In this document: positions 50,019 through 51,688 of the stretch, piece by piece
Layout of the letters: each line of letters opens with the position of its first letter
Numbering within the stretch: position 1 is the stretch's first letter
Notes under the pieces: generated by a model
Databases searched by the model: none
The model's input: only the letters and a program-made list of their open reading frames with translations
What the model was told of the DNA's origin: nothing
Program-made: the position numbers and the translations under genes
NCBI GenBank assembly: GCA_028292485.1
Contig: JAQGMG010000022.1
Span: 62,001 to 126,000, forward strand
DNA length: 64,000 nt
Source: Rhodocyclales bacterium
GTDB lineage: Bacteria; Pseudomonadota; Gammaproteobacteria; Burkholderiales; Rhodocyclaceae
Direction: 5' to 3'

Positions 50019-50122
50019 TGACAGCGCCATTCTGATTCTAATCAATATGGGTTACACTCGTTTTGCTGCTCGTGGGACAAGCCGAGCGGCCAAGTTTTCG
50101 CGAAACAATAACGGGAGAACCT

Positions 50123-50353
50123 ATGACCACCGACACAGAACTGAACGCCTCAAATGAGACCGGCCAACCCGAGGCTGGCACGACCAACTGGTCGCTGGCC
50201 CTGAATATCCGTAGTGCCCGTCGTGCCCGGTTGGCGGCAAGTCACAACGCCTCGTCGATGGACGGAGATGGTGGTGGCGGCGATGGTGGCGGTGACGGCG
50301 GTGATGACGGTGGCGGTGACGACGGTGGTGACGGTGGTGGCGATGGCGGCTGA
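50123..50353 (+). CDS. small peptide with Gly/Asp-only C-terminus, possible modified-peptide precursor
   Basis: Not recognised as a known family. ATG 50123 with GGGAGAACCT upstream gives 76 residues. Residues 1-46 are a polar leader with an amphipathic Arg/Ala segment (NIRSARRARLAASHN). Residues 47-76 contain only Gly (20) and Asp (10), ordered DGDGGGGDGGGD and so on. There is no signal peptide. An intrinsic terminator follows directly, then a 2-oxoglutarate/Fe(II) oxygenase and a DUF6817-type gene. A precursor whose Asp residues are hydroxylated by the oxygenase is my inference. A simple Ca-binding or low-complexity tail is the alternative. The 5' part is in the same frame as, but not continuous with, sequence after nadA. 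Confidence 0.7.
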   Translation: MTTDTELNASNETGQPEAGTTNWSLALNIRSARRARLAASHNASSMDGDGGGGDGGGDGGDDGGGDDGGDGGGDGG

Positions 50354-50371
50354 GAGCTGCTTCCGGATCAG

Positions 50372-50403
50372 AAAAAAAGGGCGTTATTGACGCCCTTTTT
50401 TTT
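50372..50403 (+). terminator. intrinsic terminator after the Gly/Asp peptide gene
   Basis: AAAAAAAGGGCG-TTATTGA-CGCCCTTTTTTTT: five-base GC stem, extended by A-T pairs, then an eight-T run. It sits 18 bases after the peptide stop and 50 bases before the oxygenase start, so most transcripts would end after the peptide gene. Confidence 0.88.
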
Positions 50404-50453
50404 GGTTACGATCAGGCATTATCCAGACTCCACCTCTTGCACGCAGGATTCGC

Positions 50454-51068
50454 ATGGACACACGGCCTGGTACCGATTTCGCCTTTGGCGACGTACGCAT
50501 CATTGATGGATGCATGCCAGAGGCATTGCATCAGGAGCTTGCAGATTTTTTCCAGGAGCCGATCTGGTTCTATGGATGGAAGTCGAACGGCAAGAAAGCC
50601 CAGGCGCCGAACTCGCACTGGAACGTGTTTTTTGCCGGTACGCTCAAGAACGAAACAGCGGGCAGTTGCGAAGCGGAGTTGATGGGCAACGAATTCTTCG
50701 GTCCCGTTCAGCAGCTGTGGTTATTACTCAAGGCCGGGCCGCTGGCCGGTCATGAGCCGGTACGCGTCTATGCCAACGCGCACACCTATGGCACAGATGG
50801 CTACGTGCATACCGATTCGGAAGATCACAACTATTACTCGACGATCTGTTATATGCATTCCGAGTGGCATCCCGACTGGGCCGGTGAGCTCGTGTTTTTC
50901 AATCAGGATCGCTCCGACATAACTGACGCGGTGTATCCACGGCCGGGCCGCATCGTGACTTTCCATGGCGCCGTGCCGCACTGTGCCCGGCCGCTATCGC
51001 GCGACTGCAGCGCCTTGCGCATTTCACTGGTTTACAAGACGCGCAAGATCGCCGGGGCCTGCGATTGA
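50454..51068 (+). CDS. 2-oxoglutarate/Fe(II)-dependent oxygenase (prolyl-4-hydroxylase-like)
   Basis: Non-haem iron oxygenase of 204 residues. Iron ligands His119 and Asp121 (GYVHTDSEDH) and distal His176 (GAVPHCARP) are in the usual HxD...H order; Arg189 (ALRISLVY) would bind 2-oxoglutarate. The size and fold match the prolyl-4-hydroxylase-like 2OG-FeII_Oxy_3 family, and no other domain is present. No signal peptide, so it acts in the cytoplasm. Its ribosome site is weak (CAGGATTCGC), and it follows the peptide-gene terminator. Its stop overlaps the next start. Likely target, by context, is the Asp-rich peptide. Confidence 0.85.
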   Translation: MDTRPGTDFAFGDVRIIDGCMPEALHQELADFFQEPIWFYGWKSNGKKAQAPNSHWNVFFAGTLKNETAGSCEAELMGNEFFGPVQQLWLLLKAGPLAGHEPVRVYANAHTYGTDGYVHTDSEDHNYYSTICYMHSEWHPDWAGELVFFNQDRSDITDAVYPRPGRIVTFHGAVPHCARPLSRDCSALRISLVYKTRKIAGACD

Positions 51069-51688
51069 GGTCTGCCGGTAAGCTGCCGGCGCAGCGCCGA
51101 CCACGCGATGCAAAATGCCGGGCTGCCATCGACCTGCTGATCGCCAGCGGCGCCGCCGAACTCGCTCACGCCAGCGACCGCAGTCTGCTGACTCACCTGG
51201 TGGGCACCGCGCGTTTGTTGCTTGCCTGGAACGCGCCCATCGACACGGTGCGTGCAGGTCTGTGCCATAGCATCTACGGCACCAACGCCTTTCGCAAGGC
51301 AAGCATCGCGCACACGCAACGTCCGGTGTTGCAGCGCGTCATCGGCCGTCGCGCCGAAGCACTCGTATGGCTGTTTTCCAGGCTGCAAAGGCCGGCAACC
51401 CTGTTGCGTGCCACGCATCACGGCACAACGCTTGTGAAGCAACGCTCGGGGCGCACTCGTCACCTCGACAGCTCTGCGCTGCAACAGCTTTTCATCCTTG
51501 AATGCGCCAATCTGTTTGACCAGGGCGTCTCCATGGCACGTGCCCGGCAGCTTCACGGACATGCGACCCGTCTGCCATGGTCACCCAGCCTCATGGTGCG
51601 AGCAATGCAGCGGCAGCGGCGGGACGCCCATCGCGCGCGCTGCAACGCGTTGAAGGTGCTTCGCAAGCCGCAGACCGCCTTGTCGTAG
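51065..51688 (+). CDS. DUF6817-type protein (HD-like), unknown
   Basis: 207 residues from TTG 51065, which overlaps the TGA of the oxygenase gene (TTGA), so translational coupling is likely. Residues 30-75 carry the motif pattern LTHLVGTARLLLAWNAPIDT and AGLCHSIYGTNAF that I recognise as the DUF6817 family. Invariant His, Ser and Tyr residues and the HL-x-G / H-S-x-Y-G-T arrangement recall metal-dependent HD hydrolases, but this is inference. The C-terminal part (130-207) is Arg-rich. No function is known. Close coupling with the oxygenase suggests a shared pathway. Confidence 0.72.
   Translation: MRSAGKLPAQRRPRDAKCRAAIDLLIASGAAELAHASDRSLLTHLVGTARLLLAWNAPIDTVRAGLCHSIYGTNAFRKASIAHTQRPVLQRVIGRRAEALVWLFSRLQRPATLLRATHHGTTLVKQRSGRTRHLDSSALQQLFILECANLFDQGVSMARARQLHGHATRLPWSPSLMVRAMQRQRRDAHRARCNALKVLRKPQTALS

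Follow-up and report, generated by a model that had tools for sequence, protein, structure and literature searches.

The 64-kb window analyzed here, that is, the whole stretch of Rhodocyclales DNA under study, contains a gene for a 76-residue peptide with a tail of only glycine and aspartate, followed by genes for a 2-oxoglutarate (2OG)-Fe(II) oxygenase and a DUF6817 protein. This raises the question of whether the three genes act together and, if so, on what substrate. Our preferred reading, to which we assign a probability of roughly 0.47, is a peptide-modification cassette in which the oxygenase would oxidize side chains of Gly/Asp tracts with DUF6817 as its partner.

Organization of the locus

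The features of the locus are collected in Table 1, and all the details of the first-pass annotation that were checked (peptide tail, hairpin spacing, oxygenase residues, and DUF6817 overlap) were correct. A second genome of the same genus, G001, has the three genes in identical order and keeps the hairpin between the first two. The hairpin region (50366 to 50410) folded at −21.2 kcal/mol, a value equaled by none of 200 shuffles, and the gap from the end of the hairpin and T-run to the oxygenase start is 50 bases; a simple terminator scan did not include this hairpin among its results. The DUF6817 frame opens with TTG, which lies in a 4-base overlap with the oxygenase TGA, and production of the protein is probably translationally coupled to that of the oxygenase.

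Table 1. Features of the peptide, oxygenase, and DUF6817 locus (positions within the window)
Feature	Position	Strand	Basis or comparison
Ribosome-binding-like site GGGAG ahead of the peptide start	50113..50117	+	Sequence, by eye
Gene of the 76-aa Gly/Asp-tailed peptide, including stop	50123..50353	+	Orthologue in G001 (L006 5643-5894)
Leader block with the highest conservation, residues 22 to 39	50186..50239	+	17/18 identical in two-species alignment
Tail, residues 47 to 76, Gly/Asp only (20 G, 10 D); putative site of modification	50261..50350	+	
Hairpin then T-run between peptide and oxygenase; putative terminator	50379..50403	+	Kept in G001
P4H-like 2OG-Fe(II) oxygenase, 204 aa, HxD...H...R intact	50454..51068	+	
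207-aa DUF6817 protein; HD fold of SpoT/small-alarmone-hydrolase type predicted, HD aspartate missing	51065..51688	+	

Between the two species, 31 of the 46 leader residues of the peptide are identical. Along the 29 aligned codons of the tail, there were 0, 4, and 19 changes at codon positions 1, 2, and 3, respectively, amounting to 16 silent changes and four Asp/Gly swaps. Judged from these substitutions, the tail is under clear coding selection, its Gly/Asp composition being maintained despite the drift of the DNA. An alternative frame through the tail, which would encode a hydrophobic peptide, was ruled out, since the substitutions track the Gly/Asp frame.

Among 199 genomes of the family, only 2 gave convincing leader matches, and the peptide was thus found in this genus only. 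Of another 12 weaker matches in this set (E values of 0.004 to 0.09), the 11 that could be read (all except L040) had no Gly/Asp tail in the frame and look like chance. A PHROG match of the peptide (E value of 0.0006) is probably compositional. No GG was seen by eye ahead of the tail in the window peptide, that is, no double-glycine leader.

The oxygenase exceeded the cut-offs (27 bits) of two Pfam 2OG families, PF13640 (35.5 bits) and PF13661 (30.4 bits), and its motif residues H119-x-D121, H176, and R189 were invariant in all nine aligned oxygenases paired with DUF6817. Its structure model, built from three sequences, had a pLDDT of 31. The matches in PADLOC were generic 2OG ones only, and viral contigs, scanned with a four-oxygenase alignment, contained no relative.

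The oxygenase and DUF6817 pair in other bacteria

Adjoining oxygenase and DUF6817 genes, mostly overlapping, were found at nine distinct loci. Six are in whole genomes (the window, G001, Herbaspirillum huttiense [L007], G327, G983, and G897) and three on plasmids of Paraburkholderia, Caballeronia, and Polaromonas; the Paraburkholderia pair is present in four equal-scoring records, one of which was examined. The pairs on the Paraburkholderia and Caballeronia plasmids adjoin genes for TcpQ and CAP-domain proteins, and a CAP-domain protein is also encoded near the Polaromonas pair.

Within the family of G327, a profile of the paired oxygenase gave 11 matches at an E value of ≤1e-10 in 399 genomes, with DUF6817 adjoining in 3 and absent beside the other 8. 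The DUF6817 family profile (PF20680) gave 23 matches in 299 genomes of that family, namely, the 3 paired proteins, 19 representatives of a longer protein, and 1 below the cut-off. None of the 19 genomes with the longer protein was among the 11 with a related oxygenase.

Gly/Asp tracts near the pair

The tract scan covered open frames of 40 codons or more and registered any 20-residue window in which Gly and Asp made up at least 13 positions, with a minimum of 3 Asp and 6 Gly. Besides the peptide tail, the 64 kb of the window contained no such tract. Near every one of the six whole-genome pairs, at a distance of 0.1 to 7 kb, there was a tract reaching 17/20. Measured by hand, the separation was ca. 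0.1 kb in the window and G001, 0.2 kb in G897, 5.2 kb in G327, 5.9 kb in Herbaspirillum, and 6.7 kb in G983. The tracts are carried by three unrelated scaffolds: the 76-aa peptide (two loci), a peptide with a double-glycine-type leader (one locus), and giant RTX-type proteins (three loci). In G897, the tract is carried by a 140-aa protein, encoded past DUF6817, that matched no family and whose leader looks like the double-glycine type. In G327, G983, and Herbaspirillum, the tract lies in a giant protein 5.2 to 6.7 kb from DUF6817, encoded on the same strand and downstream of the pair and of a gene with weak likeness to acetyltransferases. The giant open frames are 3,017 aa (G327) and 3,263 aa (G983) long, and RTX repeats are present in the scanned parts of the G327 and Herbaspirillum proteins. 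As the three giant proteins are homologues of one another and the window and G001 belong to one genus, these cases amount to about three independent associations of pair and tract.

As controls, we used 28 stretches totaling 526 kb (20 evenly spaced in G983 and Herbaspirillum, 3 flanks of pair loci, and 5 DUF6817 loci), and none contained a tract at 17/20. The evenly spaced stretches (400 kb) had two tracts at 13/20, one at 14, and none at 15, and the remaining eight (126 kb) had no tract. Along similar lines, eight loci with relatives of the oxygenase and no DUF6817 (143 kb) had a single tract, which lay in an RTX-like repeat and scored no higher than 13/20. Weaker tracts are not very rare, because a second one (15/20), in a candidate frame of 84 aa (L070 8965-9051), lies 4.9 kb from the G897 pair.

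None of the three plasmid pairs had a tract within 20 kb. The whole Caballeronia plasmid (281 kb) had none at 17/20 and one reaching 15/20, about the background rate, ca. 98 kb from the pair on the circular molecule. At that distance from the pair, an open frame in the conjugation region of this plasmid (pSBC1_4; L168 12521-13138) has a terminal Gly/Asp/Ser tract.

The giant proteins allowed a comparison within one family. We took the best 30 loci homologous to the part after the tract, from a longer list covering 97 of 299 genomes. The tract stood directly before the shared domain in both pair-bearing loci, and in Herbaspirillum in addition to this list, but in none of the other 28, whose genomes are all outside the 23 that matched PF20680. 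One homologue (G1100, L137), from a genome outside those with a paired-type oxygenase or a DUF6817 match, has a Gly/Glu-rich stretch, GEGGGGGEGGGGEGG, in place of the Gly/Asp tract.

These data bear on the claim of the first-pass annotation that the oxygenase acts on the Gly/Asp tail. The tracts at all six genome pairs support it, and the lack of any tract in the 20 kb around each plasmid pair counts against it, Asp hydroxylation being the putative chemistry. By the survey that had been proposed with that claim, most DUF6817-bearing genomes do not have this exact peptide. Together, the results suggest an enzyme system acting on Gly/Asp tracts that has not been described before.

Two other readings of the association have to be weighed. 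The pair might modify other residues (Pro, Lys, Asn, or Arg) of exported or surface proteins, the tracts being flexible acidic linkers or tails. This would accommodate the tract-free TcpQ and CAP-domain neighbors of the plasmid pairs, the many other candidate residues of the RTX-type proteins, and a relative of the G897 oxygenase (in G1085, see below) that adjoins a double-glycine-type peptide with no strong tract. We nevertheless consider it unlikely, given that the window tail is purely Gly/Asp and kept under selection and that the 28 giant-protein homologues from genomes without DUF6817 have no tract. The second reading takes the peptide as an independent acidic protein (a metal buffer, a phase-separating protein, or a storage protein) that is a chance neighbor of a pair acting elsewhere on a small molecule or host protein. 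Here, the hairpin that separates peptide and oxygenase in both species, the confinement of the peptide to one genus, and the many DUF6817 occurrences (most of them) without a paired-type oxygenase are set against tracts at six of six whole-genome pairs versus none equally strong in 526 kb of controls, and the latter make chance quite unlikely.

The DUF6817 protein

The window protein scored well above the PF20680 cut-off (82.9 bits versus 25.2). Its structure model, built from three sequences, was of middling confidence (pLDDT of 73). When this model was compared with known structures, RelH, SAH, Mesh1, and SpoT/Rel filled the top 17 rows, with Z scores of 10.6 to 12.1, on a scale where, according to the tool, helical models can reach 13 without kinship; the best Foldseek E value was 0.09. 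The likeness is thus to the HD domains of SpoT and small alarmone hydrolases, and the difference is that their metal-ligand and catalytic acidic residues are replaced in DUF6817. In a profile alignment, HD...ED of Lmo0812 lay opposite HS...GT. Among the nine paired proteins, His35, His44, His68, Glu146, Ser69, Gly72, Thr73, and Asn149 were invariant, the last being, by eye, at the position expected for the distal metal-ligand Asp. The model thus probably reflects an HD fold of the SpoT/small-alarmone-hydrolase type, and alarmone hydrolysis is unlikely in view of the replacements. Because the catalytic acidic residues are missing, a partner role is more likely for DUF6817 than hydrolase activity, and the further modification step that had been ascribed to it is doubtful.

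Since some di-iron oxygenases, MIOX and PhnZ, are built on an HD fold, DUF6817 might be an active metal enzyme with a modified HD site (His35, His44, His68, and Glu146) catalyzing a second step, e.g., further oxidation or cyclization through Asp, which would fit the invariant residues; however, the HD aspartate has become Ser, the catalytic Glu-Asp pair has become Gly-Thr, Asn149 occupies by eye the position expected for the distal Asp ligand, and the model is of middling confidence, so this is decidedly improbable.

Proposed mechanism

In the cassette that we favor, the 2OG-Fe(II) oxygenase would oxidize side chains within tracts made of Gly and Asp alone, the most likely chemistry being β-hydroxylation of the Asp residues ahead of export. 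In the window genus, the substrate would be the tail of the 76-aa peptide, and in the relatives, it would be the tract of the double-glycine-type-leader peptide or of the giant RTX-type proteins. DUF6817 would contribute as a catalytically altered SpoT-like HD partner, by substrate binding, docking, or regulation. The exporter and protease for the window genus would be encoded elsewhere in the genome, and the exported products may then bind metal or resist proteases. Since one pair goes with several scaffolds, recognition would be of the tract or a local feature and not of one leader. The polar leader of the window peptide, originally proposed to guide recognition, can hardly serve as a general element, being present in just those two genomes of the family while the candidate substrates span several scaffolds instead of one peptide family. 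Among the findings that count against the cassette are the 5 to 7 kb between tract and pair in the RTX-type cases, where other parts of the protein are possible substrates, and the terminator-like hairpin between peptide and oxygenase.

If this is true, DUF6817 gains a function, and a modification system would exist that reads composition (a Gly/Asp tract) and not one leader and that is common to small peptides and giant exported proteins; the two-gene module might act on a transplantable Gly/Asp tag. A bolder version, which we place on the unlikely side, is a transferable module in which a 2OG Asp-hydroxylase, coupled to a pseudo-SpoT partner, creates a metal-binding or shielding poly-hydroxyaspartate tag from the low-complexity Gly/Asp tracts of unrelated exported proteins, the partner linking the modification to nucleotide or nutrient state.

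Export and leader removal

As the first-pass annotation had noted, no exporter was recognized near the window locus, nor, by eye, a leader protease among the open reading frames of 47 to 55 kb. The window lies on contig C28, and Peptidase_C39 in its own genome was confined to C52 (over the cut-off) and C42 (below it). In G897, an HlyD gene (PF13437) follows the tract peptide and precedes a frame with half a Peptidase_C39 domain. This frame is truncated or broken, ending in a stop codon at a length of 91 aa close to the end of the contig, so that no intact dedicated exporter was seen with the DUF6817-type peptides. In Herbaspirillum, ABC- and HlyD-like genes (tblastn) come after the giant protein.

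A row of four genes was found in G1085 (L125 9497-13399), where a 2OG oxygenase, a peptide, a lipoprotein-like gene, and a peptidase-containing ABC exporter-like gene follow one another without DUF6817. The peptide, like its counterpart in G886, has a leader that looks like the double-glycine type (YISGG followed by DCEDGDE), with no strong tract in G1085. In the tree, the G1085 oxygenase groups with that of G897, with support (93/87) under the tool's mark. By gene content, G1085 and G886 would represent a second oxygenase-modified bacteriocin-like cassette. The findings on G1085 and the plasmid pairs fit two readings, one in which tract targeting disappeared together with DUF6817 and one in which the substrate is not the tract. 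The G886 cassette (L126) is like that of G1085, also lacking DUF6817, and its oxygenase is frameshifted.

Relation to known systems

Ribosomal peptides and proteins modified by 2OG enzymes are already a known kind. For the lasso peptide canucin A, the 2OG enzyme CanE β-hydroxylates Asp of the linear precursor, and CanB1 strongly stimulates this enzyme (PMC9266682); PesHI hydroxylate an Asp of another peptide (PMC13060819). The arrangement proposed here shares with CanE a 2OG-Fe(II) enzyme, Asp of a linear ribosomal precursor as the target, and a partner protein. It differs in that many Asp residues of a tract, instead of one, would be modified and in that the partner is HD-like. No lasso cyclase, protease, or RRE genes were recognized by eye beside the three genes.

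YhhC (NF041706) is likewise a peptide-modifying 2OG oxygenase, acting on cyclophane peptides, and its similarity to the window protein is very weak (12.3 bits, below the cut-off of 150). The best NCBIfam match was to FlmC (NF052475), over the catalytic half, at 56.9 bits (below the family cut-off of 240); no literature linking FlmC with 2-oxoglutarate was found. With the double-glycine bacteriocins exported by C39 transporters, G1085 shares the layout, with an oxygenase added, and in G897 there are a comparable peptide, HlyD, and an incomplete C39 frame. In the window, the peptide lacks a double-glycine leader, and its contig has no C39 gene. Searches of titles and abstract starts gave no matching system for 2OG oxygenases with RTX or type I secretion or with double-glycine bacteriocins, nor for Gly/Asp bacteriocins, hydroxyaspartate in RiPPs, or RiPP partner proteins. 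No literature naming DUF6817 was found.

Other contexts of DUF6817

In cyanophage S-RIM50 (L171 5792-7387), DUF6817 lies near tail fiber genes and overlaps by 4 bases an upstream gene that has no Pfam match and shows HxD...H...R by eye; the gene before that one matches a 2OG family weakly, its 20.2 bits for PF13640 being below the cut-off. In cyanophage S-SSM7 (L172 6390-7444), an overlap of the same length joins DUF6817 to an upstream cupin-type gene, whose product is above the cut-off for AraC_binding and just under that for JmjC_2. Two cyanophage DUF6817 stretches of 14 kb had no Gly/Asp tract at 12/20. Elsewhere, the neighbors of DUF6817 include acetyltransferases, a methyltransferase, an NlpA lipoprotein gene, and an FAD-dependent protein or NAD(P)H oxidoreductase. 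Because of the cyanophage cases and these other neighbors, the partnership of DUF6817 with oxygenases is recurrent yet not universal.

Two further forms of DUF6817 were observed. The Polaromonas plasmid protein (L022 6503-7417) is fused to a C-terminal part; by eye, this part is similar to the small protein whose gene lies directly upstream of the Paraburkholderia and Caballeronia plasmid pairs. The longer protein common in the G327 family (L049-L055, L057-L066, L016, and L017), mostly of ca. 370 aa, has a long conserved C-terminal part and, by eye, an Asp in the motif MAD where the paired type has Asn.
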